Shown: one piece after another, positions 1,734-31,033 of the stretch
Position numbering within the stretch: position 1 is the first letter of the stretch
How the letters are laid out: each line of letters opens with the position of its first letter
Source: an uncultured Pelagimonas sp.
GTDB lineage: Bacteria > Pseudomonadota > Alphaproteobacteria > Rhodobacterales > Rhodobacteraceae
Direction: 5' to 3'
Assembly (NCBI RefSeq): GCF_947498515.1
Contig: NZ_CANMKO010000015.1
Span: 1-64,000, forward strand
Length of the DNA stretch: 64,000 nucleotides
Notes under the pieces: generated by a model
What the model was told of the DNA's origin: nothing
The model's database searches: none
What the model saw: the letters and a program-made list of their open reading frames with translations, nothing else
Made by a program: the position numbers and the translations under genes

Positions 1734-1774
1734 TGATGGTACCACCTCCCCGGCTCGAACGGGGGACCTCCTGA
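1734..1774. repeat. attL: 41-bp copy of the tRNA-His 3' half
   Basis: These 41 bases are identical to 44047-44087, which lie within and just beyond the 3' half of tRNA-His. Identity stops sharply on the right side, where the intact tRNA continues but this copy does not. That is the expected result of integration into the 3' end of a tRNA gene: the intact gene stays at one end and a displaced 3' half marks the other. The preceding 1648-1679 carries degenerate copies of the 11-base repeats found at 43962-43993. Confidence 0.9.
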
Positions 1775-2139: not shown

Positions 2140-3111
2140 TTGACTGTCAAATTATTCATTAGCCACGCATCCGAGGACAAAGAGGATTTTGTTCGCCCCT
2201 TGGCTCAGATTCTATCGGAAAAGTTCGACGTTTGGTACGATGAATTCTCACTAAATATCGGAGATAGCTTACTGCATTCGGTACAAAACGGGATCCGAAC
2301 TGCCGACTATGGAATAATTGTACTAAGCCAGTATTTTTTTTCAAAAAAATGGCCGCTTTCTGAAATGGAAGGGCTATTCAACGAGGAAGTAGTTTTTGGG
2401 AAGAAGATAATACCAGTCTGGAAAGATGTGAATCATACAGATGTATCAAATAACGCACCAATATTTGCTGGAAGACTTGCGGCAAACTCTGCCGATGGAC
2501 ATGTTGTAGTTGCCAATCAAATTGAACGTGCGATCTTAACAGACGTGGATAGAAGTGTTCTACGGCCAAACTACGAGGTGGAAATTGAGGAAATCAATAG
2601 TTACAATGAAATTTGCGACATTGAGGGTCGAAAATTAGTTCATAAGAATGAGTTCTGCATCAAGGCGATATCGGACCAGGTACATGGCTATACTGAGCAA
2701 TATCAATCTGATGGCTACATTGAAAATTTTTCTGGAGCTCCGGGCCGCATTGAAAGCATCACCAAGGAACAATCCATATACTATGTAAGAAATACCTTTG
2801 ATTCGCCCCTGCTATTAGGTGAATCAATGCGGCGAACCGCTTATTGTGAGTATTATGATTCGTTCATGAGTGAAGATGAGTACTGGGTTTTCCGCCAGAG
2901 CAACCCTACTCGAAATTTGACAATTCAAATAGTTTTTCCAATTGAAAGGCCACCTAAAAACTGTGCCGGCTATGTTAGAAAATTGAATTATGATGAAGAG
3001 TACCACTCTCCACCACGGATTGTTGCTAGAGAGGATCGTCGCAGACAGATTGAGTGGAATATTCCTCGTGTAGGACTCGAGTCCTCATATATCTTGAGAT
3101 GGAAGTGGTAG
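2140..3111 (+). CDS. TIR-domain protein, probable antiphage effector
   Basis: The protein is 323 aa long from a TTG start. Residues 1-130 form a TIR domain: LFISHASEDKE in strand A, VWYDEFSLNIGDS (box 2-like), ADYGIIVLSQYFF, then KKWPLSEMEGL with W71 and the putative catalytic Glu75. Many bacterial TIR domains cleave NAD+ or make cyclic ADP-ribose variants to abort infection. Residues 140-323 are rich in predicted strands and match no family known to me; they probably sense the trigger or bind a partner. It stands 736 bases upstream of a Hachiman pair, in AT-rich DNA just inside attL, so a role in phage exclusion by the prophage is likely but inferred. Confidence 0.8.
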   Translation: MTVKLFISHASEDKEDFVRPLAQILSEKFDVWYDEFSLNIGDSLLHSVQNGIRTADYGIIVLSQYFFSKKWPLSEMEGLFNEEVVFGKKIIPVWKDVNHTDVSNNAPIFAGRLAANSADGHVVVANQIERAILTDVDRSVLRPNYEVEIEEINSYNEICDIEGRKLVHKNEFCIKAISDQVHGYTEQYQSDGYIENFSGAPGRIESITKEQSIYYVRNTFDSPLLLGESMRRTAYCEYYDSFMSEDEYWVFRQSNPTRNLTIQIVFPIERPPKNCAGYVRKLNYDEEYHSPPRIVAREDRRRQIEWNIPRVGLESSYILRWKW

Positions 3112-3847
3112 GCTGATCCCTTATGACAATCGATCTATTGGATCAAAACAACCTCGGTGTCTTGAGTTTCAGTTAGGGTCTGGCCTCATGAGTTTCAAAG
3201 CCAGTAAGTATCAGGGAGGCTAGAGCGAAGGCATAGAGGAAAACCTTCGGGCACCTGTCGTAACGAGTTGGTGCACGCCTCCCGCTTTTGAAACCACTTA
3301 ACATGATCGCAATCCGGTTGCGTTGTTTGTGTTAAGGGACACAAGTGCCAATCCCTTTGCCCAGCAACACCTCTCTGACTTATCGACATCAGAGCCGCCA
3401 TCCCCGAGCAGCTAATCGATGTCCAGCAGAGTGCTGAACAAGGCCGTGTACCGATTTAGTCCCTCAGCTGTTACAAGCAAATCAAGTGGACGCCGTTGCC
3501 TATGCAGCTTAGTATTCATACCGTATCTGCTTCTCCCAATCAGACGCCCACGCCCTCCCTTTTTTAACGCCCAAAAATGGACGCTGGGCGGTACGCTTGG
3601 AGGTGAAAAAAACGTAATTGATCTCTCATTTAAAGCCTTCCTGACTCACAAAGCGCTTCCTGACACCAGTCATTCACTCATATCGCAGCTTGCATGTAAC
3701 AATTTGCAAGCATGAAGCCTAAATGATTGAGTTTATGGCTTTCAAAAGGCGGCCGACCTACCACCTGGTCCTCCAACAGAGGCTCGGTTCAAAATTACAC
3801 GTCAATCTGTAAAAAAGGGGTTGTCCAGCCCAGCTCTATCATAGATT
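3112..3847. other. Long AT-rich gap before hamA, no recognised gene
   Basis: Frames up to 98 codons exist (for example 3419-3715, plus strand) but their products have no recognisable domain and unlikely composition. The gap may hold the hamA promoter and remnants of lost accessory genes. No tRNA, inverted repeats of an insertion sequence, or CRISPR-like repeats were seen. Confidence 0.4.
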
Positions 3848-4789
3848 GTGCCTACCGAACACACGCTCGCCTTTTACCGGAAATCAAATTTGTCAGACCG
3901 TTTAAAAACTCAGCTTGAAAACGCCCATGAAATTCGCCAAGTCCTTCGACAACTTGAAGTGAAGTGTGATCAGCCCGGCACGAAAGACCTTACAACATTA
4001 GTAGTTTTCCTCCAGTGGCAGGCAGACCTCAATGACTACGGCCCTTTTTTTGAAGTCATCAAGAACGGAATTCTATCAAACTTCGTTTTCTCATGCACTG
4101 AGGTGGAAAAAAAAATTGGAATAAAAGGAAATAGTTCTCCTGAAAAATTACTTCAAAAGGCCATCAGAAAACTTAGCAAACATACCGCAAAAGGTGAGCT
4201 AGGGGAGTTAATACTATACACCCTTCTAGATGTCTATTTTCAAGCACCTAAGCTGCTCAGCAAAGTATGCATGAAGACCAACCCGAGAATGCCAGTATTC
4301 GGAGCAGACGCTGTACACGGTCAATATATTGATGGTCAATTCAAGCTATACTTGGGGGAATCCAAGATTCATAAAGATTTTGTTGGAGCTGCAACATCAG
4401 CCTCAAAATCAATCAAAAATGCGAAATTAAAATATCAAGATGAATTTGATCTACTTGACAGTCACATGGATTTTCCAAACATCACTCAGGATTTGGAAGA
4501 TAAACTATTATCTCTTTTAGATCCCTTTGAAAACGACGAGTGGCAAGAAACGATTCATTCACCATGCTTCATTGGATTCACTAATCCCAGCGTCTTGTCA
4601 AAAACAACCACGGAAGATCAGTTCTTGAAAGAATACGCAAAGTTAGCCGAAGAATATATCAGCACGTTTTCTGAAAAAATTCAGACTCAAGAAATGCAGC
4701 TTTCCGAAGTCTCTTTATTGATTTTACCTTTTGCCTGTATTGACCAGCTTGTGAATAGTTTCATCGATCACATGGGAATAAAAAATTGA
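3848..4789 (+). CDS. hamA: Hachiman protein HamA (DUF1837-type nuclease)
   Basis: The protein is 313 aa from a GTG start. The central part carries GELGELILYTLL (residues 116-127), PVFGADAVHG (149-158) and LYLGESKIH (167-175). Read together, E117 or E120, D154 and E171-x-K173 form the acidic-acidic-lysine pattern of a PD-(D/E)XK nuclease, as described for HamA of Hachiman. The gene overlaps hamB by 4 bases, so the two are translated together. Hachiman is a two-gene antiphage system in which HamB restrains HamA and releases it to degrade DNA on damage or infection. The start is uncertain because no strong ribosome binding site precedes 3848. Confidence 0.82.
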   Translation: MPTEHTLAFYRKSNLSDRLKTQLENAHEIRQVLRQLEVKCDQPGTKDLTTLVVFLQWQADLNDYGPFFEVIKNGILSNFVFSCTEVEKKIGIKGNSSPEKLLQKAIRKLSKHTAKGELGELILYTLLDVYFQAPKLLSKVCMKTNPRMPVFGADAVHGQYIDGQFKLYLGESKIHKDFVGAATSASKSIKNAKLKYQDEFDLLDSHMDFPNITQDLEDKLLSLLDPFENDEWQETIHSPCFIGFTNPSVLSKTTTEDQFLKEYAKLAEEYISTFSEKIQTQEMQLSEVSLLILPFACIDQLVNSFIDHMGIKN

Positions 4790-7284
4790 GCGACTTCACA
4801 ACCAAACTGTCAAAAAAAATCTCTAGTAGCGAAAAATATGCAGAAGCGACAAACTTGCTATTCAAATCATACATTTTGGATATGATCGGCGAGCCAAAGA
4901 TTCCAGAAAAGCAAAAGATAAAGAAACTCATTTCCGCCGCCCAAGTTTTCTACAAGTCTTCAAATGAAAAGCACAGGAAAGAAGGAGCAACTGTGCTATC
5001 GATGATACTTGACACTTGCGCAACTAAGCACCCTGATATAATCCCTATTGCATACAATATGTTTGCGTTTTCTGGCAACTTCCCAAACACAGACCTGCTT
5101 ACCAAACGGCATCCAGAAACACATTTCTCCTACAATTTTTATTCCGACGCGCAAATCGAATTTAGAAGAGATTTAAACACAGTTGACGAGCTGAACTTCA
5201 CACTGACAGACTATCAAAGATCGCTCTGGAATGACCTTGCATCCGACGATGATGTTATTACATCTGCACCCACGTCAGCGGGAAAAACACACATTATTCT
5301 CAACTACCTTCTCGAAAAAGTGGGGGGGAGTGATGGAGCATTTGCAGCGATCATTGTGCCTACAAGGGCACTTATCTCTGAGGTGGCTGGGAAAATTTAT
5401 GAGCTAGCAGAGCAACTAAACTATCTAAGTGAGATCGAGATATGCACAGTCCCCAAAGAAGGTGATTTCAAAGACAAAACTTTCTTCGTGATGACACAAG
5501 AAAGACTGTATGAGATCCTCATGAGAGGCGACATCTCATTCAACTACTTCTTTCTAGATGAAGCACACAATATCGCAGACAAGAGTAGAGGGGTATTGCT
5601 TCATCTTACGATTGAAAAAATGCTAGATGACAGCAACCCTCAAATTATCATTAGCATGCCATCTGCAAGCTACCAGAACTCGTTCTCTTCCGTTTTTAAC
5701 AGCATTGAGTTCAAAAAAGAAATAACTAGTGATTCTCCCGTTTCGAAGGTTATCATGTCAATTGTCCCCAAGGGACTCAACTTAGTTGTAAGTCGCGAGG
5801 GAACTCAAGACACTGTCACCATTAAAAAAGGTTTCGTCGGGAGAGATGTAGCCGATATCGTCTACAAGTTAGGAAGAGGGCAGAGTAATATCATCTACCG
5901 GAACAGGACTGATTATTGCGAAAATATGGCTGACAAAATCGCCGCCCTCATTCCGCAGGAAGAAAAAAACCATTTTCTAGAAGAAGCTGCCGACTACATC
6001 GAAAAATTTATACATGAAGACTTTTCACTCGCAGACAACTTAAGAAAAGGTACCGCCTTCCACTACGGCCCTTTACCAGCCTCGGTGAGAGTTATGGTAG
6101 AAAACCTCGTAAAAGACAACCATATTAAATTCATCGCCTGCACCAGTACGCTTGCAGAGGGTGTTAATTTACCCGCAAAGAACTTATTCCTGCAGAACCC
6201 TTTACAACCCCGAATGATGCAATCTGCGGAGAGGCTCGAGGATGTTAAAATTAGCAACATCACCGGGCGCGCGGGAAGAATGCTCCACCATTTTTCAGGA
6301 AATGTGTTTTTAATTGACCCAGAGAGGTGGGATTTTCAAGACTACTTTGATGGCGAGGACAACGAAGCTGACAAAATCCCCACGTACTTCAAAACGTTAA
6401 ATGAAGATATAAACAAGGTGTTAGATGCCCTGCGCGGCACCTACAATAATGATGAAAACGACAAATACCGCTTCTATTCCATTGCCAATAAGCTAATTAA
6501 GGACTTCACCTCGGAACGTTTGGAAGAGACCATACAAGCAGATGAGGTAAGTTTAACAACTGAGCAAAAAGATGAGTTGTCCAACGCAGTCAAGGAAGCC
6601 TATAGGAGTTTAACTGTCCCAACGTTTACTTTAGAAATAAATCCCACCACCGGATATATTCAGCAGAATGCGCTATTCAATTTCCTCAACAGACTAGATA
6701 ACTACAGTGACTGGATAATGCCTCACCCGAGAGCAGGAAATCTGTACGAAGCGCTGGTAAAAATTACAAACCTCCTTCAAGATACAGGTGTATTCTTGCC
6801 AAACGAAGGAAATAGCATTGAGCACATCTCGACCATTGCGAAAAAATGGGTTCAAGGTTCCAGCCTGAAAGACATTATTTCAGAGCAAATTCAGTGGGAA
6901 AGCAAGCTGCGCACTGTTTCAGTTAACGCGTCGGTCAGAAATGTGATAAAAGTGATAAATAACGATGTCAGGTTCCGCTTATCGAACGCTTTGCGTTGCT
7001 ACGACCTTTTGCTTACGAGCATTTTAATCCGGAAGGATTTAAAGTTCTCAAACACCAAACTGCATTCATTCATCGAGGTCGGGGGGTGCGACGAAAGGCT
7101 AATTAGCCTCATCAACACAGGGCTTTCTCGTGAGGCTGCAATCGAACTTCATGAGACGCTTCCAAGGAGTGTCTCGGTTGCCACCTTAGGTGACTTGTTG
7201 AGTATATTGAGATCAGACGGGTTGGGAGAGATTCATCCAATCACCAAAAAAGAAATCTCTCATTTATTCAACACGGCCAACTGA
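4786..7284 (+). CDS. hamB: Hachiman helicase HamB (superfamily 2)
   Basis: The protein is 832 aa and starts at TTG within the hamA stop (TTGA overlap). It has the SF2 motifs in order: TDYQ at 141-144, APTSAGKT (Walker A, 161-168), VPTRAL (motif Ia, near 191), LDEAHN (Walker B, 257-262), a TSTLAEGVNLP stretch and NITGRAGRM (motif VI). The layout resembles Ski2-like helicases, as reported for HamB. It should move on DNA with ATP and keep HamA inactive until triggered. The long C-terminal part without clear motifs probably contacts HamA. It converges on the next gene with only 2 bases between them. Confidence 0.85.
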   Translation: MSDFTTKLSKKISSSEKYAEATNLLFKSYILDMIGEPKIPEKQKIKKLISAAQVFYKSSNEKHRKEGATVLSMILDTCATKHPDIIPIAYNMFAFSGNFPNTDLLTKRHPETHFSYNFYSDAQIEFRRDLNTVDELNFTLTDYQRSLWNDLASDDDVITSAPTSAGKTHIILNYLLEKVGGSDGAFAAIIVPTRALISEVAGKIYELAEQLNYLSEIEICTVPKEGDFKDKTFFVMTQERLYEILMRGDISFNYFFLDEAHNIADKSRGVLLHLTIEKMLDDSNPQIIISMPSASYQNSFSSVFNSIEFKKEITSDSPVSKVIMSIVPKGLNLVVSREGTQDTVTIKKGFVGRDVADIVYKLGRGQSNIIYRNRTDYCENMADKIAALIPQEEKNHFLEEAADYIEKFIHEDFSLADNLRKGTAFHYGPLPASVRVMVENLVKDNHIKFIACTSTLAEGVNLPAKNLFLQNPLQPRMMQSAERLEDVKISNITGRAGRMLHHFSGNVFLIDPERWDFQDYFDGEDNEADKIPTYFKTLNEDINKVLDALRGTYNNDENDKYRFYSIANKLIKDFTSERLEETIQADEVSLTTEQKDELSNAVKEAYRSLTVPTFTLEINPTTGYIQQNALFNFLNRLDNYSDWIMPHPRAGNLYEALVKITNLLQDTGVFLPNEGNSIEHISTIAKKWVQGSSLKDIISEQIQWESKLRTVSVNASVRNVIKVINNDVRFRLSNALRCYDLLLTSILIRKDLKFSNTKLHSFIEVGGCDERLISLINTGLSREAAIELHETLPRSVSVATLGDLLSILRSDGLGEIHPITKKEISHLFNTAN

Positions 7285-8993: not shown

Positions 8994-9809
8994 CTACAAA
9001 AGAGACAACCTTGGTTCTCGATTGCTGATGATCAGCTCCTGCGCATCGGTCGCCGCTTGGCTGGACACTGTGTATTTCAGGGTGACCTCATGCAGATGTG
9101 CCCAGGCGAACAGGTCGCGGATTTCAGAGACGTCATTGATCGACAGGATGAACGCGCCTTCAATCCCTTTCAGCTGATCAGCCATTTGGGCAAACTGATT
9201 GCGATCGAACATGCCCCTGCCATAGTCATTTTCACCACCGACATAAGGCGGGTCCAGATAAAACAGACTGTTGGGCCCGTCATAGCGCCGCAACACTTCG
9301 GACCAGTCCAAACATTCAAACACCACTCCCTGCAGTCGAGAATGTGCCGCATCCAACAATGGACCGACGCGGCTGAGATCAAAGCGCGAGCCGCGTTCAT
9401 TGGTGACGCCAAACACACCGCCAAGTTTGCCGCCAAAGGCCAGGCGCTGCAGATACAAAAACCGCGCGGCGCGCTCGATGTCAGTCAGCGTGTCTGGTTC
9501 GGTTTTGCGCAGGCGCTCAAATTCACGGCGCGAGGTGATTTGATAGCGCATGTGGTTCATCAGATCGGGATAGTGCCGCTGCAATATCCTGAACAGATTG
9601 GTGATTTCTCCATTGAGATCGTTCATCACTTCACATTGCGGCTGCCAAGTCCTGCGCAAGAATACCCCGCCCATACCGACAAACGGCTCGACATAGGTTT
9701 TGTGCGGGATGGCCTCAATCCGCTCGATCAAAGTACGATAGAGGGCTTTCTTACCACCCAGCCAAGGAGCGACCGGCGCGGCAGGTGCCACCTTTTTCAT
9801 TTTACTCAT
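8994..9809 (-). CDS. Dam-type (D12 class) DNA adenine methylase
   Basis: The product is 271 aa if it starts at the ATG at 9809 preceded by GGGAATCAACC; an in-frame ATG at 9845 is less likely. Motifs include APWLGGKKAL near the N-terminus, YVEPFVGMGGVFLRR (SAM binding motif I), NDLNGEITNLF and FYLDPPYVGG (catalytic DPPY, motif IV). These define the D12 class that methylates N6 of adenine, as Dam and DpnM do. No restriction enzyme gene is adjacent, so it is a solitary methylase, typical of temperate phages, where it shields phage DNA or changes gene expression. The target sequence cannot be read from the protein. Confidence 0.88.
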   Translation of the reverse strand: MSKMKKVAPAAPVAPWLGGKKALYRTLIERIEAIPHKTYVEPFVGMGGVFLRRTWQPQCEVMNDLNGEITNLFRILQRHYPDLMNHMRYQITSRREFERLRKTEPDTLTDIERAARFLYLQRLAFGGKLGGVFGVTNERGSRFDLSRVGPLLDAAHSRLQGVVFECLDWSEVLRRYDGPNSLFYLDPPYVGGENDYGRGMFDRNQFAQMADQLKGIEGAFILSINDVSEIRDLFAWAHLHEVTLKYTVSSQAATDAQELIISNREPRLSLL

Positions 9810-9832
9810 GGTTGATTCCCAAATAAGAAACA

Positions 9833-9955
9833 CCCGCTCTTGCAAGAGTCGGGCGATGCATATCTGGATTCAGGTATCGGTGCAGCGAGTTTCAACGCGT
9901 GCTGCATGGTGGCGGTGTTAGAGCACCGCTACCCCCGCCCTGCATGGGCGCGGGA
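9833..9955. other. Two hairpins between the GafA-like gene and the methylase
   Basis: At 9833-9853 the arms CCCG and CGGG enclose the perfect palindrome CTCTTGCAAGAG. At 9936-9950 CGCCC and GGGCG pair around TGCAT. Neither is followed by a long T-tract in the minus direction, although TGTTTCTTATTT follows the first. They may be a weak terminator, or an operator controlling the methylase and nuclease genes. Confidence 0.4.
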
Positions 9956-9965: not shown

Positions 9966-10982
9966 TCAGATTGTGGGCGCGTGGCCTGCCCGTTGCGCAG
10001 CACGGGATTTCAGGAGGGTGAGGATAGCCGCATCTCCGGTCTGTGCTGTCGCGTTGGACGGCGTTTCAGACGCCCGTCGATAGACAAGCTGCGCGCGGAT
10101 CAAAGCCTCACGCAGCAGCGCCTTGGCGCTTCGGGTTGGCAGCCCCAATCGGGCTTCGAGTTCTTCGATTGGCTCTTTGGTGACGCAATAGGCCCAGACC
10201 ACTTCTGGCATGACACCTGGACCGAGGTCTTGGATCACGGACGCCAGACGTGCCGCCGCCATGGCGTCGGATGAATTTGCACTTTCCCCCTGCCCCAATA
10301 CAGTTTTCAGAGATTTGGCGCGGGTTTGGATTGCGTCCTGCCGGATCCACAACCCAACTTTTTGCAGCTCGGGGTCGATCTTGAATTGGCCCTGCCGGTT
10401 CTGACGCTGCCACAGGGTCTCAAGCGGGTCATACTCCTGCGGACCATGGCGCGCGTCTTTAAGCTGTGGTGTGTTTTGGTTCTCGATTTCCGCTGTCTCC
10501 GTGATCAAATAGGCGCGGCCGGCTGGCGACAGTTTCAGGCAAAACACTCTTGCTTTGGCGTCGATTGGAACAATCCAACCCGCCATTTGCAGCAGTGCCG
10601 CAATGTGGCTTGCGCACCGGGCCAGAACAGTTGGCTCCATGCCGCTTTGGCTGTTCATCACCGCTGCCGTATCCAGACCGCTGGACCAGGCCAACAAAGC
10701 CCCTCGCTTACTCAAGCGAGACAGGATCAGCTGACAGGTGCTGTTCCATTCATCCTCACTAGGCAGGTTTGCGACCCACAGCCCCCAGTCCCGATCTGCC
10801 GCCTGCAACGCAGCTGCAACCAGCGGACTGCCCGCCTCAATCCTGGTGATCCTGTCGATCTGGCGTTTGATTGTGCTGGCATGTGCTGCGCGTTTTCGGG
10901 CGAGATGGCGCATCGGTTTGCCAAACCCGACATGCTCGATAAAGGCGGTCACTGGACCCGGCAGATAGCTGGGCACTCTCAT
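9966..10982 (-). CDS. GafA/DUF6456-like transcription activator
   Basis: The start at 10982 is chosen because its ATG overlaps the stop of the CtrA-like gene (ATGA), giving 338 aa; an in-frame ATG at 11066 is less likely. Residues 22-50 (PMRHLARKRAAHASTIKRQI) form a TrpR/DnaA-like helix-turn-helix followed by IDRITRIEAGSPLVAAAL. The C-terminal part (about 250-318, IQDLGPGVMPEVVWAYCVTK and LGLPTRSAKALLREAL) resembles DUF6456. GafA, the direct activator of the Rhodobacter capsulatus gene transfer agent, has this two-part build with a DNA-binding N-terminus and an RNA-polymerase-contacting C-terminus. From position after the lysis genes it probably controls late transcription of this prophage. 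Family assignment is from memory of the motifs. Confidence 0.6.
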   Translation of the reverse strand: MRVPSYLPGPVTAFIEHVGFGKPMRHLARKRAAHASTIKRQIDRITRIEAGSPLVAAALQAADRDWGLWVANLPSEDEWNSTCQLILSRLSKRGALLAWSSGLDTAAVMNSQSGMEPTVLARCASHIAALLQMAGWIVPIDAKARVFCLKLSPAGRAYLITETAEIENQNTPQLKDARHGPQEYDPLETLWQRQNRQGQFKIDPELQKVGLWIRQDAIQTRAKSLKTVLGQGESANSSDAMAAARLASVIQDLGPGVMPEVVWAYCVTKEPIEELEARLGLPTRSAKALLREALIRAQLVYRRASETPSNATAQTGDAAILTLLKSRAAQRAGHAPTI

Positions 10983-11650
10983 GCCCATTCCCCTTTGAAC
11001 CTGTAGCCACGTCCCCAAACCGTCTCGATCATCGCAGGACCACCCAATGCCTTGCGGATTTTGCAAATGAAGACATCAACGATTTTGAGCTCTGGCTGAG
11101 ACAGATGCCCATAGGCGGCATCAAGTATCTCTTGCTTGGACAAAATGCGCCCGCCGGCTCGGATCAATACCGCAAGGATTGCCGCTTCCTTTGGGGTCAG
11201 CCGAACCGTCTCTGCTCCAATGGTCACCTCACCGGTTTCCAGATTGAATGAGGACCCATCTTTGAGCACGCGAGGTTCAAATGTTGGTTGCTTCGCCTTG
11301 TCGGCTGCGGCCCTCAAACGCGCCACCACCTCTGCGATATGCGCCGCTCCATTGCAAACATCGGCAACATCGCTGGCAAAAGCAGCGGTGATAAGATCAG
11401 GCGCAAAACGGTCTCCCCAGATGACCAGAGGCACTGGCCGGCTCAAACGTGAGCAACGCTTTGCAAGCGTGATGGCAGACATATCGCCCAGGTTCGGAGC
11501 GGCCAGAACAACGTCATAGGTCAGTGACCGCGCATGGCTGAGCGCATCAGCGCCAGAAGGGGTGATCTCACAAGTGATCCGCTCACTGGCCAAGAGATCA
11601 GCCCAAGTCCAGGCAGTGGTGACTTCGGGATTTGCTATGAGAGCAAGCAT
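10979..11650 (-). CDS. CtrA-like OmpR-family regulator with a degenerate receiver
   Basis: The protein is 223 aa. Its C-terminal winged helix (about 145-222) is strikingly close to CtrA: QPELKIVDVFICKIRK and MIETVWGRGYRF correspond almost word for word. The N-terminal receiver aligns with CtrA in register, but the phospho-acceptor Asp51 is Ala51 (DVVLAAPNLGDM) and the acidic pair after strand 1 is lost (IANPE). It therefore cannot be phosphorylated at the normal site and would bind DNA independently of the CckA-ChpT relay. It overlaps the GafA-like gene by 4 bases. In the host, CtrA controls gafA and gene transfer agent production; here both types of regulator are carried by the prophage. Confidence 0.85.
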   Translation of the reverse strand: MLALIANPEVTTAWTWADLLASERITCEITPSGADALSHARSLTYDVVLAAPNLGDMSAITLAKRCSRLSRPVPLVIWGDRFAPDLITAAFASDVADVCNGAAHIAEVVARLRAAADKAKQPTFEPRVLKDGSSFNLETGEVTIGAETVRLTPKEAAILAVLIRAGGRILSKQEILDAAYGHLSQPELKIVDVFICKIRKALGGPAMIETVWGRGYRFKGEWA

Positions 11651-11652
11651 GG

Positions 11653-12300
11653 CTAGGCCTCCTCGATCAGCGGCAGGTCCGGATCATCCCACTGGGCCGT
11701 TGGCGTGCGTGGAAACGGGTCATCTGGATTGGTTGGCAGTTGCGGTGAGAGGAACTCTGCCCCCTGCCATTCCCCCTGCCCCCAGAAGCTTGTTCGGATC
11801 AATATTCCGGCTTGCGCGACATTCACGAAGTGAGGTCGGCCGAGGTAGGTCAGCGACGGGCACCCGAGATCGTAGCCATGCCCGACCGCCAAAATCCCGC
11901 CAACACGCACCGGTGCGCCATCAACCGTGCCAGCCGCGCTTTGATTGCCATCGAGCACGCCCCGGATTTCAACCACGGAACCCTCTGATCCCGGTCGGAA
12001 GGTGAAGATGCCGGCATAGTGGTTCGATCGATCTGTTAACTGCACGCCGCGCGTCCAGCTCGGAGTGTCGATCATTGAGACCGTGACGCCGGGCGCGATT
12101 TTGAGATGCACGGGGCGATCGATCAACACATCACCTGCCAAACTGAGATCGCTGTCAATCAGAGCGATCACCCCGTCCTTCGCCGCCCGCCGGATCAATG
12201 CTTCAACCCGGTCGGCTGGAACAGCACCACCTCCCAAATGTTTGGACAGCATCAGTGGTCCAGAGCTGGCCTTGGCATGTGGAAACATCGTGTTACGCAT
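11653..12300 (-). CDS. Phage protein with beta-helix-like start, unknown
   Basis: The protein is 215 aa from ATG 12300, which overlaps the upstream stop by 8 bases. The stretch DGVIALIDSDLSLAGDVLIDRPVHLKIAPG has the repeated strand pattern of a right-handed beta-helix, as in pectate lyase-like tail spikes, followed by VVEIRGVLDGNQS. It is shorter than usual spikes. Position between the spanins and the regulators, in an operon of tightly packed genes, suggests a minor virion or receptor-binding component. No catalytic site can be named. Confidence 0.5.
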   Translation of the reverse strand: MRNTMFPHAKASSGPLMLSKHLGGGAVPADRVEALIRRAAKDGVIALIDSDLSLAGDVLIDRPVHLKIAPGVTVSMIDTPSWTRGVQLTDRSNHYAGIFTFRPGSEGSVVEIRGVLDGNQSAAGTVDGAPVRVGGILAVGHGYDLGCPSLTYLGRPHFVNVAQAGILIRTSFWGQGEWQGAEFLSPQLPTNPDDPFPRTPTAQWDDPDLPLIEEA

Positions 12301-12589
12301 CTTCAATATCCCCATATTGAACCGCCAGCGTGGTTTGCCCTTCGCTCAACACCCAAAGGTAGCACGCGCCAGGAACACCGGGCATCAGAGCCGCCACGTC
12401 GAGGCTTTCAGGCGCATCGGTGCGATAGCGCCAACCACCAGCGAAGTCGGCTGGCGTAGTGGCATCCGTGGTCGCCATAACTCGGATGGCATTGGCCCCG
12501 AGGTTCTGGAAAAACACTGCACCGCTGACTGGCCCTGCAATCAGGACCGGCACACCAGCGGGCGCAGGAATGTCGCCTTTGAAGGCCAT
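12293..12589 (-). CDS. Small phage protein, unknown
   Basis: The protein is 98 aa from ATG 12589 (MAFKGDIPAPAGVPVLIAGP). It is strand-rich, with FFQNLGANAIRVMATTDATTP in the middle, and resembles small decoration or fibre-tip proteins often found between lysis and tail genes. No membrane segment or catalytic motif is visible. It is separated by 2 bases from the spanin lipoprotein gene and overlaps the next gene. Confidence 0.5.
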   Translation of the reverse strand: MAFKGDIPAPAGVPVLIAGPVSGAVFFQNLGANAIRVMATTDATTPADFAGGWRYRTDAPESLDVAALMPGVPGACYLWVLSEGQTTLAVQYGDIEDA

Positions 12590-12591
12590 GA

Positions 12592-12837
12592 CTAATGCTC
12601 CTCTTTGGGACAGCTGCGCCAATGGCACGACAGGATGGTGATCAGCAAAAGTCCGGTGTCGCGGGCCTCTTCCAACGTGCCATCAGCCAATGCAGCAGCA
12701 TGGGTTTTGGCCGGCGTTTGCGCCGCGTCCAAAATGGCGGCAGCCGTGCCTTGCGGGTTTTGCGGTTCATTGCGCCAGGTCGCGCAACCGCTGACGCTGG
12801 ACATCAGCAACAACAGGCAAATCAGAGGTTTCATCAT
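12592..12837 (-). CDS. Outer-membrane spanin lipoprotein (Rz1-like)
   Basis: The start is ATG 12837 or 12834, with AAAGGG upstream; the product is about 81 aa. It begins MMKPLICLLLLMSSVSGCAT, a lipoprotein signal peptide whose lipobox VSGC gives Cys18 as the acylated residue. The start lies inside the preceding inner-membrane spanin gene in a different frame, the standard nested arrangement of Rz and Rz1. Such proteins span the periplasm with their partner and fuse the membranes in the last step of lysis. The C-terminal half is unusual in ending in a cysteine-bearing stretch (SCHWRSCPKEEH). Confidence 0.7.
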   Translation of the reverse strand: MMKPLICLLLLMSSVSGCATWRNEPQNPQGTAAAILDAAQTPAKTHAAALADGTLEEARDTGLLLITILSCHWRSCPKEEH

Positions 12838-12994
12838 CGATCCCTTTGCGAGTTTGAATGTAGGATTGGGAGCGCTGCAGATCGCGGCTCGTCTGATCGA
12901 GCGCGGCTTTCGTACTCGCGCGATCGGAGCCAAGGGCAATGCCGATCGCGATCAACAGCAGTGGAATGGAGCCAAATAGAAGCCAGCGGATCAC
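12767..12994 (-). CDS. Inner-membrane spanin (Rz-like)
   Basis: The product is 75 aa from GTG 12994, chosen because it overlaps the endolysin stop as GTGA. One membrane helix (WLLFGSIPLLLIAIGIAL) is followed by a polar, probably coiled-coil part (TKAALDQTSRDLQRSQSYIQ). This is the expected form of an i-spanin anchored in the inner membrane and reaching across the periplasm. It overlaps the Rz1-like gene by 71 bases in another frame. Confidence 0.7.
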   Translation of the reverse strand: MIRWLLFGSIPLLLIAIGIALGSDRASTKAALDQTSRDLQRSQSYIQTRKGIDDETSDLPVVADVQRQRLRDLAQ

Positions 12995-13473
12995 CGGGCA
13001 GGTTCCAGCGATGACAGGCACAGCTTTTGCTCAGCGGCACGTCGGTTTGAAAGGCCCGGCACCACCCGGCCGCCGGCCCGATTCCAGCGCGGCAGCTCGT
13101 TGCAGGCCCCGACCAGATCACCAGCATTGGCCTTGCGCATCAAGGTTGATCCGCAGGCGGCCCCAGTGCCGACATTGTAGGACCAGCTATAAAGAGCAAC
13201 CTTCATGCCCTGGGGCATCACCGCCTCGATCTCATCGTCGATGCATTTATTGAGACGCCCGGCAAAGGCTGCAACCTGCTCGCCAAGCATCTGATCACAC
13301 TGCGCTTTGGAGTAGTGATCACCGGGCTTCACCCCATGGGTTTCACCATAACAAACCGTCCAAACCCCAACGATGTCGGGATAGGCCTTTGTGCGCAGCC
13401 CTTCCCAGGGCGCAATAAAAGAAACGGCCGCTGCGATGGCAGCGGCCGCTCCAGCCAGAACAGGTTTTTTCAT
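12991..13473 (-). CDS. Endolysin, GH24 lysozyme with signal-anchor
   Basis: The protein is 160 aa. Residues 5-22 form a weakly hydrophobic Ala-rich segment like a SAR signal, so the enzyme is probably exported by Sec and held in the membrane until the holin acts. The catalytic part has APWEGLRTKAYPDIVGVWTV followed by GETHG: Glu24, Asp33 and Thr39 correspond to the Glu-Asp-Thr triad of T4-type lysozymes. It cleaves the glycan strands of peptidoglycan. Upstream is the holin, downstream the two spanins, which completes a Gram-negative lysis cassette. Confidence 0.88.
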   Translation of the reverse strand: MKKPVLAGAAAAIAAAVSFIAPWEGLRTKAYPDIVGVWTVCYGETHGVKPGDHYSKAQCDQMLGEQVAAFAGRLNKCIDDEIEAVMPQGMKVALYSWSYNVGTGAACGSTLMRKANAGDLVGACNELPRWNRAGGRVVPGLSNRRAAEQKLCLSSLEPAR

Positions 13474-13477
13474 GGGT

Positions 13478-13687
13478 CTATCCTTTGTTGCCGTATTTCA
13501 ATTCGATCTCGAGCCGGGCCAAGCGGCGCATTTCGCGCTTGTGCAGCACGTTGGAGATGTACCCTCCTACCGCGCAGAGGCAGCCAACCACCGCCATCCA
13601 ATCGGTGAGCGTCAATGTCCCCGTCACCGCCATCACCGCCCCGCTCCATGTTGTGGAAGAGATCATTCCACCAACCTTGTCATCCAT
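13478..13687 (-). CDS. Probable holin
   Basis: The ribosome binding site AGGAGGT sits 6 bases before ATG 13687, while the alternative ATG at 13693 is too close, so 13687 is chosen (69 aa). The hydrophobic segments WSGAVMAVTGTLTL and MAVVGCLCAVGGYISNVL are followed by a charged tail (HKREMRRLARLEIELKYGNKG), the pattern of small class II holins. It lies 4 bases before the endolysin. It would open the inner membrane to start lysis. Confidence 0.75.
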   Translation of the reverse strand: MDDKVGGMISSTTWSGAVMAVTGTLTLTDWMAVVGCLCAVGGYISNVLHKREMRRLARLEIELKYGNKG

Positions 13688-13780
13688 ATGCATACCTCCT
13701 TGGTTCAGCTCAGCTGCTCGCGTCTTGCCGATGTTGTGCCCTCCAAAGTCGAGGGCGTTTTGTGTCGGTTTTCAGCTCTG

Positions 13781-14759: not shown

Positions 14760-17700
14760 CTATGTCAGATTGATTGAAACGCTTCGCGCCCGACCCGGTC
14801 CAAGCGCACCGATCTGCGCGACGCGGAACCGCGCGGCTCCGATGTCAGCGGCCTGCATCGCCGCCGACCAAGTGAAGCCGGGCTGGTTGGTTTGAACCGT
14901 CCGGAGCACCGCGCCGGCCGCTGTCAAAATCTCGACCTGATAGAGCCCGCTGCTTTCAGAGACCGGCACCTCGCTCAGCGCCCAGCTCTCTGAAGACAAC
15001 AGCCGGTCACGACGCACCCAGCTCAGATCGATGTCAGCGCCACTTGCCGCTGCCTTGAGATGCGCTGGCGCAAAGGGGATCAAACCTGTGCCTTTGGGCG
15101 TGACCGCGAGTTCAGTCACTTTCGCCGCTGCGGAATAGCCAGAGACCTGCCAGTTTGTCGGCACGCCGATGTCAGCCATCGAGATCGGCAAAGGCACCAA
15201 GTTTTCATCGAGCAGCACAATCATCGCCCCGGCGGCGATCACGTCAGGCATCAGCCATTCGGTGCCGCGCTGACCGCGAAGCAGATGGGACAAGCGATAG
15301 CGCCGCGTGCCAATCAACGCGACATGCCCGGCCTGCAGGATTTCCCAGTGATCAGGCGCAACCTCGATCGCCAGGGCATTGGCGCCGGCGAACAGCTCTG
15401 TGTCCGAGACCGCCGTCAGGCTACCGGACAACAGCTCGATCTCAAACGCATTGGCCTCATCAAAGAGCCAAAGCGGCCCGGCTGGCAGGTCACTTTTCAG
15501 CACGCCAATCGAGGCGCGGGTTTCCACCGTTGCGATCGAGGTGAAGCCATCCTCGGATGTGCTGCGACGGATGTCATAGCCGCCGCCCCATGGGTCCGCC
15601 CAAACAGCCGCAAAGGGGCGATGCGCCGGCACATCCTCATGGATTTGGGGCAGGTCCAAAATCCGCACCAATGGGGCCCCTTCGATCAGCGCGCGCGGTC
15701 GCATCTTGGTTTGCCGCGCCGCACCGGGCGGCATGTCGTGCAGCTCGGGATCATGGCGCACCGCCTCAACCTTCAGCGCATCGCCCTGGTTCAAACGCTG
15801 GATGCGCCAGCGCTCAAACCCATCGCGCTCAGGCAGCGAGATCACATCCCCAGCCCGCAGTGCCTGACGATTTGGCGGCAGGCTCAGGCTGATTGCCTCA
15901 CGCCCAACAATCTGCTCCCAAAACGCCACCCGGCAACGTTGCTCTGCCCCACCTGACCATGTGGCCAGCATCATGCTGGTGGCGCTTTCCCGCACATTTT
16001 GCGCCGCCCCTTTGCGCTCCTCAACCGGCATCGCCTCATAGCCGGCTTGGCTATTGAGCACCGTCCATTTGAGCGCGCGCGGCAGCTCGGTTTCTTGGGC
16101 GCGGGTAATCTCAAACGGATCATCCTCGTGGCCATGCACAAGTTCCCCCAAGTGAAGAGGAACATGTGCCTGCTGATCACGGTTGCGGAAGACAATTTTA
16201 CCGTCACTCTCTACCGCATCAATGCCAAAATACTGCGCCAGCACCGAGATCGAGGCCCGCGCACTCTCGATCGAGCTAATGTAATAGCCATCAATAACCT
16301 GCCAGATTTCTGAGGTATCGATGCGCGCCAAATCCATGCCGGAACGTTGGCAGAGGAGCTGGAGCAAATCCGCCACCGGCATCGCCCCTGCCCGGCCATT
16401 GAGCCAATGACCGCGATCATGGTTGGGTCCATCAGACCAGACATCCGACAGCGCCGGGAACCAGGGAAACGGCCGCGCATCCCAGGCCCAGGCGGCGCAA
16501 CGGCTGACATCAATCATCGGGCCAGCATAAACGGGCGAGACCGGGTTGTTTGCCGGATCATTCCAATAGCCAAGCACCGCCTCAAAGTAGCGCCGCTGGA
16601 TCGCCTCATCACGCCAGCCGCGCGAGAAGTACGGCAGATAGCTCTCCGAGCCGCCATCTTCGAGATAAAAGACATTGGGTTGATTGGTGCCCTTGTCGAT
16701 GGCCGCACAGCCGATTTCTGTGAAGGTGATTGGCTTGGATTGCGGCACCCAGGTACTGGCACTGGAGACCTCGATGCCGCCTATGCGATCAACATGTGGA
16801 TTAGACCACCAGGCGCGCATATTCTTGTTGGCAAAGACCCATGGCTTGCCCTGCCCATCTGTGATCGGCGTGCGGATCTGGCTCTCGCGATCAGCGGCGC
16901 TGGCATAAAACCAATCGGCGTATTCGCCCCCCTCAATGCCCGCCTGCAGATAGTCGAGATCATAGATCGAATTGGCGATGCCGGCATCGAAATGATCCGA
17001 TCCATCCCGCCAATCTGTGAGCGGCAGATAATTGTCCACGCCAACAAAGGCGATATTGGGATCAGACCACAGCGGATCGAGGTGGAAGAAGACATCGCCA
17101 GAGCCGTCATCGGGGCGATAGCTGTGATATTCCGACCAATCAGCGGCATAGCTGAGCTGCACACCGGGCAGGATTGCCGCGACATCTGCGGCCAGAGCAA
17201 TCAACGCATCCACTGCTGGAAAGCTGTTCCCCGGCCCGCGGATTTGCGTCAGCCCGCGCAGCTCAGACCCGATCAGAAAGGCTTCAACTCCGCCCGCAAT
17301 CTGACACAAAAACGCATTGTGCAGGATCATCCGGCGATAGCCCCAATCATTGGGATCGCCGGTATAGGCGACGCTGTCGCCACTGATCGCAAAATCAGAC
17401 ACCTGCGCCGTGCCAAAGAACGCCGCGACTTGATCAGCGGCTGTTTGGCTTTGATCGACACTGCCAGCATAGCCCATGCTTGGGCTGCAGGTGATGCGGC
17501 CGCGCCAGGGCATGTCGGGCTGCTCAATCGCACTCGCATTGTCACTATAGGGATCGGGCAGGATGTTGCCCTTTGGGATGTCCATCATCACAAAGGGGTA
17601 AAACGTCACGGCTTTGCCCACCGACACCAAGTGCCGCACGCCTTGGATCACCGCAAAATCCGCCGGTGTGCCGCCATAGTTGGCCGAGCCATCGAGCTTT

Positions 17701-18740
17701 TTGCTGACCTGATAAGCTTGCGAGCGCAGCAACCCACCAACAGTCCAGCTCGGTTCGCTGACCTTGGTGGCATGGTTCACACCCGGCTGCACCAAACACT
17801 CCCCCGCCCGCAGGTCTGATCCGTACCAGGTCACCACCAGACTGACGCTTTCCACATTCGGCAGATGCGCATTGAGCTGTTCCAGCGAGACTTCAAAATC
17901 CGTTGCATCGCGGCGCGCGTGATTGACCTCAGGCGTGGAATGGCCCCGATTGAGGAGATTTCCCTCAAAGCCCAGCTGGTTGAAGAAATCATCAAAGCCA
18001 GCGAGCCCATTTGGAGCTTGATCACTCATCACGTTCTCAGTGGCAAAGACAAATTCGCCATCCGGGATCATCGCCACCGCTTGCAGCTGACCTTCCATCG
18101 AGGTGCTGGATGTCGGAGCTTTGAATACCTCGATCGACATCTGCGGGATGGTTCCATAGTTGTGAACCGGGAAGTTTTCGAACACCACATAGGCGATGCC
18201 GCGATAGGCCGGCACCGGGCCTTGGGTCTTCTCAACGATCAGCGGATCGGGGTCTTGAATCTCGCTCCCATGATAGACCCGCAAGGTGAACTCATCACGT
18301 GAGACCTCTTCGCCCTCGATCCAAATGCGGCCGATGCCGGTGATCTCACCCTCACAAAGTGCGGCCGCAAAATCCGCCCAATAGCGATGGGTGATCTCTT
18401 TGACTTTCGGCTTTGGCCCACCCTTGCCACCACCGCGCGTTTTACTCTTGCGATCATGCTCATAATCCGTCGCCCAAAGCAGCTGCACCCCGCATTTCAT
18501 CCGGCCATAGATGCGCGGGATCGCCTCGCCCTCGGTTGAGCTGGTGGCGGTCAGGTTTTCCAGCTTGGGCCCTTCGACCTTTTGCGCCGGCGCAAGACTG
18601 GCCGCGACCCAATTGTCGACATAGGAGCCAGCCATACGGCCAACAGCGGTGCCGATCGCCATGGCCGAAACGCCCAAGATGCTGCCCCCGATCGAGCCGC
18701 CAATCATTCCGCCAATGGCCCCCAATGCGATTGTTGCCAT
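14760..18740 (-). CDS. Tail tip protein with GTA TIM-barrel-like domain
   Basis: GGAGGTG just upstream supports ATG 18740, giving 1326 aa. It starts MATIALGAIGGMIGGSIGG and follows with the ATSSTEGEAIPRIYGRMK segment typical of the large tail protein of gene transfer agents (ORFg15 type). A glycoside-hydrolase-like TIM barrel covers roughly 400-760 (IAFVGVDNYLPLTDWRDG, WVFANKNMRAWW), followed by phage tail and fibronectin-like parts. It forms the tip of the tail and probably contacts the cell surface. It follows the NlpC/P60 gene by 1 base. Confidence 0.9.
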   Translation of the reverse strand: MATIALGAIGGMIGGSIGGSILGVSAMAIGTAVGRMAGSYVDNWVAASLAPAQKVEGPKLENLTATSSTEGEAIPRIYGRMKCGVQLLWATDYEHDRKSKTRGGGKGGPKPKVKEITHRYWADFAAALCEGEITGIGRIWIEGEEVSRDEFTLRVYHGSEIQDPDPLIVEKTQGPVPAYRGIAYVVFENFPVHNYGTIPQMSIEVFKAPTSSTSMEGQLQAVAMIPDGEFVFATENVMSDQAPNGLAGFDDFFNQLGFEGNLLNRGHSTPEVNHARRDATDFEVSLEQLNAHLPNVESVSLVVTWYGSDLRAGECLVQPGVNHATKVSEPSWTVGGLLRSQAYQVSKKLDGSANYGGTPADFAVIQGVRHLVSVGKAVTFYPFVMMDIPKGNILPDPYSDNASAIEQPDMPWRGRITCSPSMGYAGSVDQSQTAADQVAAFFGTAQVSDFAISGDSVAYTGDPNDWGYRRMILHNAFLCQIAGGVEAFLIGSELRGLTQIRGPGNSFPAVDALIALAADVAAILPGVQLSYAADWSEYHSYRPDDGSGDVFFHLDPLWSDPNIAFVGVDNYLPLTDWRDGSDHFDAGIANSIYDLDYLQAGIEGGEYADWFYASAADRESQIRTPITDGQGKPWVFANKNMRAWWSNPHVDRIGGIEVSSASTWVPQSKPITFTEIGCAAIDKGTNQPNVFYLEDGGSESYLPYFSRGWRDEAIQRRYFEAVLGYWNDPANNPVSPVYAGPMIDVSRCAAWAWDARPFPWFPALSDVWSDGPNHDRGHWLNGRAGAMPVADLLQLLCQRSGMDLARIDTSEIWQVIDGYYISSIESARASISVLAQYFGIDAVESDGKIVFRNRDQQAHVPLHLGELVHGHEDDPFEITRAQETELPRALKWTVLNSQAGYEAMPVEERKGAAQNVRESATSMMLATWSGGAEQRCRVAFWEQIVGREAISLSLPPNRQALRAGDVISLPERDGFERWRIQRLNQGDALKVEAVRHDPELHDMPPGAARQTKMRPRALIEGAPLVRILDLPQIHEDVPAHRPFAAVWADPWGGGYDIRRSTSEDGFTSIATVETRASIGVLKSDLPAGPLWLFDEANAFEIELLSGSLTAVSDTELFAGANALAIEVAPDHWEILQAGHVALIGTRRYRLSHLLRGQRGTEWLMPDVIAAGAMIVLLDENLVPLPISMADIGVPTNWQVSGYSAAAKVTELAVTPKGTGLIPFAPAHLKAAASGADIDLSWVRRDRLLSSESWALSEVPVSESSGLYQVEILTAAGAVLRTVQTNQPGFTWSAAMQAADIGAARFRVAQIGALGPGRARSVSINLT

Positions 18741-18741
18741 C

Positions 18742-19170
18742 TCAAGACACCTCCGGAAAGCGGAACACAAAGGCGATGCGCCCGCGCCATTCAACCGGCA
18801 TACGCATCTCGACCACGCCGCGCCGCTCATAGGCATGAATGATCATCCCCGGCCCGGCTTGGAACGCGCAATGTTTGGCGACCCTCATATGCGGCATGCG
18901 GAACAAGAGCACATCACCGGGCTGTCGATCTTGCAGCACCACTTCATTCATGAAGCCCCGCACCGGATCGGCGATCAGCTCAACAGACCCCGCCTCGCCT
19001 GCATCGCGGGCATAGGGGCGCATATCCACAGGCTCCGGTCCAATCAATTCGCGCCACACGCCGCGCAACAGCCCAAGGCAATCACAGCCCACACTTTTGA
19101 GCGAAGCCTGGTCGTGATAGGGCGTGCCAATCCAAGCCCGCGCGGCCTGCACAATTTCTTCCTGTCTCAC
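18742..19170 (-). CDS. NlpC/P60 cell-wall peptidase of the tail (GTA ORFg14 type)
   Basis: The protein is 142 aa. ARAWIGTPYHDQASLKSVGC leads to GCDCLGLLRGVWRELIG with the catalytic Cys, PGDVLLFRM marks the central strand, and AKHCAFQAGPGMIIHAY carries the catalytic His. The order matches the short NlpC/P60 peptidases in gene transfer agents and related siphophages, which cut peptide cross-links during DNA entry. It overlaps the DUF2163 gene by 4 bases. Confidence 0.9.
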   Translation of the reverse strand: MRQEEIVQAARAWIGTPYHDQASLKSVGCDCLGLLRGVWRELIGPEPVDMRPYARDAGEAGSVELIADPVRGFMNEVVLQDRQPGDVLLFRMPHMRVAKHCAFQAGPGMIIHAYERRGVVEMRMPVEWRGRIAFVFRFPEVS

Positions 19171-22851: not shown

Positions 22852-23183
22852 TTTTTCCGCACCTCTCCACCCATGGCCGTGTTCATCATGCGCGCCACGG
22901 TTTTCATATCCTGCCAGTTTTGCTGTTGTGGCTTGCGCCGCCGCCCCAGAAACTTGTTCAAATCCGGGAAGTCTTTGGGCTTGTGAAACCCAACCCGAAC
23001 AAGGGCACCGATCTGCCAGGCGGCGACATCCAGAAACATCTGTTCGCGCTCAATCCGCTTGGCAGCGCCGGTCATGATGCGCTCGATCGAGCGCAGTGTC
23101 ATATGCCAGAAGCGATCCGGATCCTGCCCGGCCTCGATCCAGTTTTCCCAAAGGGACGCCCAGTCTAGGACGTCCCTTCGGCG
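22848..23183 (-). CDS. Tail assembly chaperone extension (-1 frame, GT-type)
   Basis: An ATG-started frame of 84 aa covers 22848-23102, but the frame stays open upstream to 23183 and codes RDVLDWASLWENWIEAGQ and further residues before that ATG, with tail-chaperone-like composition. It is in the -1 frame relative to the preceding gene and joins it exactly at a slippery G GGA AAC. The main product is therefore probably a fusion of about 227 aa, with 116 residues from the upstream gene and 111 from here. Such G/GT pairs guide tail tube protein onto the tape measure. The gene end overlaps the tape measure start. Confidence 0.75.
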   Translation of the reverse strand, partial: RRRDVLDWASLWENWIEAGQDPDRFWHMTLRSIERIMTGAAKRIEREQMFLDVAAWQIGALVRVGFHKPKDFPDLNKFLGRRRKPQQQNWQDMKTVARMMNTAMGGEVRKK

Positions 23184-23530: not shown

Positions 23531-23542
23531 AGGATCCTCGCT

Positions 23543-23962: not shown

Positions 23963-23964
23963 GA

Positions 23965-25770: not shown

Positions 25771-25776
25771 GCCGAG

Positions 25777-26082: not shown

Positions 26083-26093
26083 GTCATTCTCCT

Positions 26094-26125: not shown

Positions 26126-26139
26126 GATTGGTTCGTGGA

Positions 26140-31030: not shown

Positions 31031-31033
31031 GTG

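Follow-up and report, generated by a model that had tools for sequence, protein, structure and literature searches.

A CtrA-like protein with a degenerate receiver and an overlapping GafA-like gene at the late-gene end of a Pelagimonas prophage

Introduction

In Rhodobacter capsulatus, production of the gene transfer agent (GTA) RcGTA runs through an axis in which host CtrA controls gafA and GafA acts on the GTA. This axis poses two open questions: in what way the two regulators cooperate to produce the GTA, and why a former phage answers to a cell-cycle regulator. GafA and CtrA have been proposed to be jointly active at gafA, and GafA with phosphorylated CtrA at the late RcGTA loci (PMC9638019). 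Overexpressed D51A CtrA was found to raise RcGTA transfer 2-fold, in a study whose model has unphosphorylated CtrA activate gafA and which also places GafA near a receiver-less CtrA homologue in phage RDJLPhi1 (Fogg 2019, PMC6363796). In Caulobacter, GafY and GafZ activate the GTA CcGTA, and GafZ is an antiterminator (PMC11150451). For phages, Mascolo 2022 shows host CtrA sites, and the Jorvik paper reports that infection needs host CtrA. Here, we describe a related gene pair in a prophage of an uncultured Pelagimonas sp. (Rhodobacteraceae; assembly GCF_947498515.1), which lies in the first 64,000 nucleotides of contig NZ_CANMKO010000015.1 (hereafter, the window). In this prophage, a gene for a CtrA-like protein with a degenerate receiver (P0001) overlaps a gene for a GafA-like protein (P0002), and the pair sits at the end of the run of late (head, tail and lysis) genes.

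An original prediction made from the window knew of no phage for which this pair had been described, a statement that the RDJLPhi1 locus contradicts. In that phage, a GafA-like protein with a helix-turn-helix (HTH) and DUF6456 (gp38) adjoins a protein with a CtrA DNA-binding domain (gp37), and gp33-gp32 of RDJLPhi2 resemble this pair (domains were scanned for RDJLPhi1). However, gafA comes first in RDJLPhi1, a gap separates the genes and the CtrA-like protein has no receiver at all, whereas the window has ctrA first, an overlap, a full-length pseudoreceiver and, in a temperate phage, a position where the late genes end. The annotated neighbours in RDJLPhi1, RDJLPhi2 and phage RcPescado are replication or nucleotide-metabolism genes, unlike those in the window. 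The pair is, therefore, a version of a phage pair already described. It resembles the host axis in that homologous regulators are proposed to cooperate, but host CtrA is a phosphorylated chromosomal protein, gafA is located away from ctrA and controlled by CtrA, and the target is a domesticated GTA. Likewise, P0002 has GafY- and GafZ-like halves and a hairpin separates the leader from the late genes, as in the Caulobacter system, but the complex described there, in the parts of the source available, has no CtrA-like partner, and any sharing of binding elements would be putative.

With confidence slightly above even, we propose that the two proteins are subunits of one phage-owned, phosphorelay-independent regulator of the late genes. 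The CtrA-like subunit would carry its CtrA-type DNA reader on the scaffold of a receiver, and would work without the host CckA-ChpT relay because that receiver can no longer be phosphorylated. The GafA-like subunit would contribute the contacts to the sigma factor or RNA polymerase and, given its homology with GafZ, may also allow transcription through terminators. Bound to each other and to a putative target site, the two would switch on, or keep on, the late head, tail and lysis genes, and a feedback loop would result because the pair lies at the end of the genes that it would activate.

The CtrA-like protein

Both open reading frames (ORFs) were recovered on the minus strand as predicted (Table 1). 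The stop codon of the ctrA-like gene (TGA) and the start codon of the gafA-like gene (ATG) share four bases (ATGA), and the two are separate overlapping ORFs, unlike the single-chain phage proteins described below. The same two genes, in the same order and with the same overlap, are present in all three prophages compared, namely that of the window, a second one in the same genome and a third one in Pelagimonas varians. The host genome consists of 4.63 Mb in 47 contigs, the window prophage lying on contig C15 and its sister on contig C2, and it contains a canonical ctrA apart from the prophage copies.

Judged by its sequence, the receiver of P0001 is still recognisable but degenerate. The Pfam family Response_reg scored 19.4 bits, below its cut-off of 30.2 bits, and alignment to host CtrA confirmed that Ala51 replaces Asp51 in exact register. 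At the other positions that we take to form the receiver active site, Glu7 and Asp8 are replaced by Asn and Pro (His and Pro in the C2 copy), the serine of the ILSG motif by Ile (by Trp if the register is moved by one) and the lysine of the TKP motif by Gly; residue 9 stays acidic. Ala51 is common to all three copies. The ratio of nonsynonymous to synonymous substitution rates (dN/dS) is 0.12–0.15 for pseudoreceiver residues 1–118 and 0.13–0.23 for the rest of the gene, compared with 0.20–0.24 for the gafA-like gene and 0.08–0.17 for three other genes of the module. Because of this low dN/dS, the pseudoreceiver is regarded as being under purifying selection, kept rather than decaying. Two cysteines of the pseudoreceiver, C27 and C99, are also present in all three copies.

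The DNA-binding domain matched Trans_reg_C with 68.3 bits (cut-off, 26.2 bits). The description of this domain as a nearly unchanged CtrA domain holds for the recognition helix and wing, in which 23 of the 26 residues are identical to those of host CtrA, but not for the domain as a whole (38 of 82). Only 15 of the remaining 56 residues are identical (Fisher p 1.6e-7; the sites are not independent), and five other response regulators of the same genome share 9–13 of the 26 helix and wing residues. Among six regulators of the genome, host CtrA is the closest to the P0001 domain (63.2 versus 40.6 bits), and it is also the best genome-wide match of P0001 when the copy in the second prophage is set aside. 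Selection seems to have held the DNA-reading surface of P0001. P0001 also matched PHROG 731 over nearly its full length, but this is a general response-regulator family to which host CtrA matches much better (219.9 versus 86 bits), and we rejected it as a specific assignment.

A structure model of P0001, built from three sequences with a confidence of 62.7, shows alternation of alpha and beta elements in the receiver. A Foldseek search with this model matched full-length regulators of the OmpR family, including RitR and the orphan regulator of entry 2hqr (titled phosphorylation-independent), which we take to be HP1043. Because the model is of low confidence, these matches confirm membership of the OmpR family only. 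RitR and the 2hqr protein resemble P0001 in being OmpR-type regulators that work without a phosphorylated aspartate, but they are bacterial chromosomal proteins with no tie to GafA. RitR is titled a redox sensor, and with C27 and C99 kept in all three copies of the pseudoreceiver, redox control is conceivable.

The GafA-like protein

The GafA/DUF6456 features ascribed to P0002 were borne out. DUF6456 scored 56.3 bits (cut-off, 26.3 bits), and P0002 is 32% identical to host GafA along its length, the N-terminal HTH region included (phmmer E 1.6e-20, 70 bits), although the Pfam scan gave no HTH match in P0002. Its structure model was poor (mean pLDDT 41). No match to P0002 was found in plasmids, and a sequence search of solved structures gave no convincing relative of GafA (best E 0.028).

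Single-chain relatives in phages

The strongest support for a joint function comes from phage proteins in which both kinds of domain are fused and for which no description was found in the literature searched. A single 279-aa chain of phage RDJL3, annotated as a CzcR-like response regulator, combines matches to DUF6456 (28.4 bits), to Trans_reg_C (41.8 bits) and, for the N-terminal HTH, to the GafA PHROG (45.2 bits). In RcPescado, gp59 matched DUF6456 (33.0 bits) and Trans_reg_C (55.6 bits). A protein of vB_PmaS-R3 is 56% identical to the RDJL3 fusion over 96% of its length and also carries the GafA-like N-terminal HTH in the same chain, while in RcPescado this HTH is encoded by a separate small gene (gp68); with RDJLPhi1 gp38 as the query, such an HTH was found in 10 Rhodobacter phages. 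RcPescado gp59 as the query matched 31 records, 24 of which, from 23 phages, cover at least 80% of it (21 Rhodobacter phages, vB_PmaS-R3 twice and RDJL3); of these phages, RcPescado, vB_PmaS-R3 and RDJL3 were scanned for domains. The fusions are annotated as 'CzcR-like response regulator' or 'helix-turn-helix protein'.

In the genomes of the order, where the best candidates (up to six) per genome were scored, three more fusion loci were found in 2 of 390 genomes (E≤1e-16). Each of the six fusion proteins retrieved scores above the Pfam cut-offs for both domains, in two cases by a small margin (vB_PmaS-R3 with 26.8 versus 26.3 bits for DUF6456, and that of genome G293 with 26.8 versus 26.2 bits for Trans_reg_C). 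The fusions match only the C-terminal 45–60 or so of the 136 DUF6456 positions, with the motif G-W-P/S-A-R-S-A-K, and the GafY-like end of the two proteins from genome G612 rests on HTH matches below the cut-off and on alignment. A scan of viral contigs with the RDJL3 fusion found no relative.

The phage fusions (RDJL3, vB_PmaS-R3 and those of the RcPescado-type RcD phages) thus resemble the window pair in joining a C-terminal GafA segment to a CtrA-type DNA-binding domain, but differ in being a single chain without a receiver and with a partial DUF6456. Of the 26 helix and wing residues, 19–21 are shared with host CtrA in RDJL3, vB_PmaS-R3 and RcPescado. Host CtrA was the closest of the six regulators of the host genome for 8 of 11 phage DNA-binding domains, namely those of P0001, the P. 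varians copy, RDJLPhi1, RDJLPhi2, RDJL6, RDJL3, vB_PmaS-R3 and RcPescado. Because phages fuse both domains in one chain, a physical link between the CtrA- and GafA-like proteins is plausible, and the fusions suggest that the two act as one switch for virus genes.

As far as we searched, the pseudoreceiver form in three prophages and the DUF6456-CtrA fusion proteins are new. Our literature search, judged mostly by titles and the openings of abstracts, found no description of the fusion or of the pair in a prophage, and the available parts of PMC4641407, PMC11409702, PMC6536676 and PMC8224337 make no mention of a CtrA-GafA fusion or of the pseudoreceiver. In PMC8601537, GafA (rcc01865) was used as a query against the Rhodobacter phages of that study and, in the part available, only rcc01080 reached the identity threshold; that study therefore did not report the divergent GafA segments present in the RcD phages.

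Two further observations concern these loci. DNA methylase genes recur near CtrA/GafA-type regulators (L094 6084–6899, L063 10380–11660, L019 6832–8115 and window 8994–9845), being of the D12 class in the window and L094 and annotated 'DNA methylase' in vB_DshS-R4C and RcPescado. In addition, vB_DshS-R4C gp39 (L063 11959–12855) is GafA-like (DUF6456, 34.8 bits), with no CtrA-like gene annotated beside it in the stretch examined, and this phage has a gene annotated as a GTA tail protein.

Candidate target sites and possible action on the host

Several observations weigh against a phage-owned late-gene regulator. The pair lies at the far end of the gene run that it is proposed to activate, and no separate promoter for it was found. 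The original prediction suggested that late expression may run through CtrA sites, but TTAA-N7-TTAA does not occur in the 64-kb window (0.26 expected). The host GTA promoter region contains no late-leader element, and the region 31300–33300 contains no sigma-70-like promoter (0.9 expected). The promoter-like TTGAC-N15-TTGAC, which keeps the same spacing in all three prophages, is not specific because it occurs 18 times in the genome. For the hairpin discussed below, the covariation term of the consensus fold is unfavourable (+1.46, three sequences). Regarding the proteins, the structure models of both P0001 and P0002 are of low confidence, and three of the five control regulators show the same skew towards helix and wing weakly (p 0.007–0.018), so that part of it is a property of the whole family. 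A tree of the DNA-binding domains was weakly supported, with good support for 2 of 14 inner branches, and leaves it undecided whether the phage CtrAs form one clade. Finally, the three fusions from genomes are closest to another regulator (L008) by a margin of 1 to 16 bits and share 12–18 of the 26 helix and wing residues with host CtrA, two of them only 12 and 14; their domains are OmpR-type and not clearly CtrA-type, and the claim of a CtrA-GafA fusion therefore rests on the phages.

A cluster of 10 GTAAC/GTTAC repeats, which includes two perfect GTAAC-N6-GTAAC sites, one within the 256-bp gap between the primase gene and gene X (32766–33021) and the other at its border, was considered as a CtrA-dependent late switch and rejected, which also counts against the proposal. 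Phage contig L066, which encodes a 62% identical primase, has repeats in the same place with the same 11-bp and 8-bp spacing but with the letters GTCAC/GTGAC, and the cluster is therefore better read as replication iterons. Within the 9.7 kb of L066 that were compared, tblastn gave no match to P0001 at E≤1 and a best E of 0.11 for P0002. In the window, KTAAC-N6-KTAAC with up to one mismatch occurs 4 times (3.57 expected). As an observation apart from the regulators, the cluster is a candidate replication origin with co-evolving iterons.

In both sister prophages, but not in that of the window, a perfect and palindromic TTAACAAAGTGTTAAC is present in identical form (C2 ~509730, L013; P. varians, L055), ahead of a run of minus-strand genes that possibly continues into the late genes. 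This may be a host CtrA box or, because it is palindromic, a repressor operator. A further perfect site in P. varians falls within an ORF. In a half-site scan, high-scoring sites were fewer than in block shuffles in all three regions (4 versus 21, 6 versus 26 and 17 versus 26).

The gap between gene X and the late genes contains a GC-rich hairpin followed by a T tract, which is conserved in all three prophages (fold z -4.2, -3.3 and -1.2). Columns 121/130 of the alignment change on both sides and stay paired, while pairs 113/139 and 123/128 are each broken in one sequence, and the hairpin is absent from the listing of a consensus scan. Because GafZ of Caulobacter is an antiterminator, this putative terminator would be a natural target of antitermination. 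We also considered the hairpin as the GafZ-binding palindrome of Caulobacter (GCGCCCG-CTGGCGC), but the T tract and the distance to TTGAC fit a terminator better.

The missing TTAA-N7-TTAA sites also favour a reading in which the pair acts in trans on the host, with a phosphorylation-blind CtrA mimic occupying host CtrA sites, that of the host gafA promoter among them, and a second GafA activating or blocking the host GTA or other CtrA-regulon genes. The host possesses a GTA cluster, a CtrA-like box stands ~80 bp ahead of the ORF of its gafA, the DNA-reading surface of P0001 matches that of host CtrA, and non-phosphorylatable CtrA raises RcGTA transfer in R. capsulatus (PMC6363796). However, the pairs and fusions in isolated phages and the linkage to tail and lysis genes suggest a role in the phage cycle, and with only 32% identity to host GafA, the promoter specificity of P0002 may differ. 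We consider action on the host rather unlikely.

Linkage to the tail and lysis module

The second prophage shares positions 10066–13741 and 14780–32027 of the window at 92% identity, and that of P. varians, which has other head genes, shares 10116–13741 and 14794–20053 at 86–88%. The pair is thus linked to the tail and lysis module in three prophages that differ in their head or early modules. Because the shared segments carry both, the pair moves with this module and not with the downstream cargo. In the fusion loci from genomes, the genes before the fusion likewise encode the tape measure and a tail protein in L092, a tail fibre in L093, and lysozyme and a D12 methylase in L094, a placement that resembles that in the window, the D12 methylase neighbour being shared with L094. 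A regulator gene distal to tail genes is also known from phage P2, whose late activator gene ogr lies at the end of the tail operon, but the pair has no Ogr/Delta zinc-finger Pfam match at E≤1.

Relatives of P0001 were found in 2 of 394 genomes of the family (E≤1e-30; the best candidates, up to seven per genome, were scored) and in 2 of 3 genomes of the genus (E≤1e-28), the window's own genome being one of the two in each case. Because relatives occur in only 2 of the 394 genomes, the pair, as far as homology searches tell, is not a general host gene. P0002 matched proteins in 82 of the 394 genomes (E≤1e-10), and none of the 28 GafA-like loci examined outside Pelagimonas had a P0001-like ORF within ~1.5 kb; these loci are probably host gafA genes. 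A search of 'phage' records with P0001 gave 86 matches, but many of the best 60 are unannotated and labelled Listeria, Enterococcus or Staphylococcus, and these were not used.

It could also be supposed that expression of the late genes depends on host CtrA or other factors, the pair being accessory cargo with no essential role. The pair borders a variable cargo region (methylase, nuclease, TIR and Hachiman), host CtrA controls several alphaproteobacterial phages (PMC9437464), and TTAACAAAGTGTTAAC in the sister prophages lies where it might serve the late genes. We give this explanation little credence, given that the pair follows the tail and lysis module between prophages, that the window prophage has no CtrA box and that both genes are under purifying selection. 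Slightly less credible still is that the pseudoreceiver serves as a decoy, binding CckA or ChpT so as to weaken the CtrA phosphorelay, as the receiver-like Osp of Rhodobacter sphaeroides, which lacks the phosphorylation residues, inhibits CckA (PMC9430884): the pseudoreceiver is conserved, but Osp consists of one domain, while P0001 also has a conserved CtrA-type DNA-binding domain and comes with a GafA partner, and RDJLPhi1 keeps the rest without any receiver.

A broader scheme can also be drawn, which we put forward as doubtful. Rhodobacterales phages may share a modular late-gene machine composed of a CtrA-type reader and GafY and GafZ parts, which occur as separate, overlapping or fused genes, and the control of GTAs by host CtrA and GafA might be its domesticated descendant, in which host CtrA replaced the phosphorylation-blind CtrA of the phage. 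If there is one such machine, the CtrA-GafA link of GTAs could descend from phage regulation rather than being a host invention. Phages with a tight pair or a single chain offer a compact, testable system, and the single-chain forms are good candidates for structural work on GafA.

Features of the prophage

The element is a real prophage, as had been predicted. An exact 41-bp repeat, one copy of which overlaps tRNA-His, bounds it (Table 1), and the element is therefore ~42.3 kb long. These attachment (att) sites, an integrase-like ORF and primase genes distinguish it from a domesticated GTA. The integrase-like ORF matched neither a Pfam family (E≤0.05) nor a PHROG (E≤0.001). The gene order is primase genes, head and tail genes, lysozyme, the pair, and then the D12 methylase and SNase. 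Of the GTA-like character ascribed to the late genes, part was recovered: compared with the host GTA cluster on C2, identity is 41–45% for the gp12-gp15 relatives, 69% for the protease (160 aa) and 25% for the portal, and GTA_TIM scored 460.8 bits. Because the terminase and major capsid protein had no match in the host GTA cluster at E≤1e-5, the late genes are, on these comparisons, GTA-like in part only.

Table 1. Positions of the features discussed, in window coordinates
Feature	Position	Strand	Basis or remark
attL core, 41 bp identical to attR	1734–1774	.	Exact repeat
HamA	3848–4789		In prophage
HamB	4786–7284		In prophage
D12-class adenine methyltransferase, 3' of the pair	8994–9845	minus	
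GafA-like protein P0002, 338 aa	9966–10982	minus	ORF, Pfam and alignment to host GafA
DUF6456 (GafZ-like) domain with RSAK motif	10077–10430	minus	Pfam
N-terminal HTH-like segment aligning to GafA N-terminus (GafY-like)	10800–10961	minus	Alignment
CtrA-like pseudo-response regulator P0001, 223 aa	10979–11650	minus	ORF and Pfam
OmpR-type winged helix with CtrA-like recognition helix and wing, residues 140–221	10988–11233	minus	Pfam and alignment
Pseudoreceiver, residues 1–118	11297–11650	minus	Alignment to host CtrA
Ala51 codon	11498–11500	minus	In register with host CtrA Asp51
220-aa protein, family unknown, immediately 5' of ctrA-like gene	11653–12315	minus	dN/dS 0.16–0.17
Phage lysozyme (endolysin)	12991–13473	minus	
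Head and tail genes: terminase, portal, protease, major capsid protein, tape measure, GTA-like gp12-gp15 with GTA_TIM	14760–31030	minus	
Conserved GC-rich hairpin and T tract, gap between gene X and late genes	32003–32027	minus	Putative terminator or antitermination target
TTGAC-N15-TTGAC, same spacing in all three prophages	32048–32072	minus	Promoter-like candidate, not specific
Gene X	32064–32765		Between repeat cluster and late genes
Cluster of 10 GTAAC/GTTAC repeats	32736–33013	.	More likely iterons than CtrA boxes
Integrase-like ORF beside tRNA	42591–43958	+	Tyrosine-recombinase-like C-terminus by eye
attR core, overlapping tRNA-His (44050–44126)	44047–44087	.	Exact repeat

Near attL, a TIR-domain gene and a complete-looking Hachiman pair (2140–7284) represent phage-borne defence cargo. 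A remnant at 803–1774, which is 72–80% identical to parts of the integrase region and lies beside a second tRNA-His fragment, probably derives from an older element that integrated in tandem at the same tRNA.

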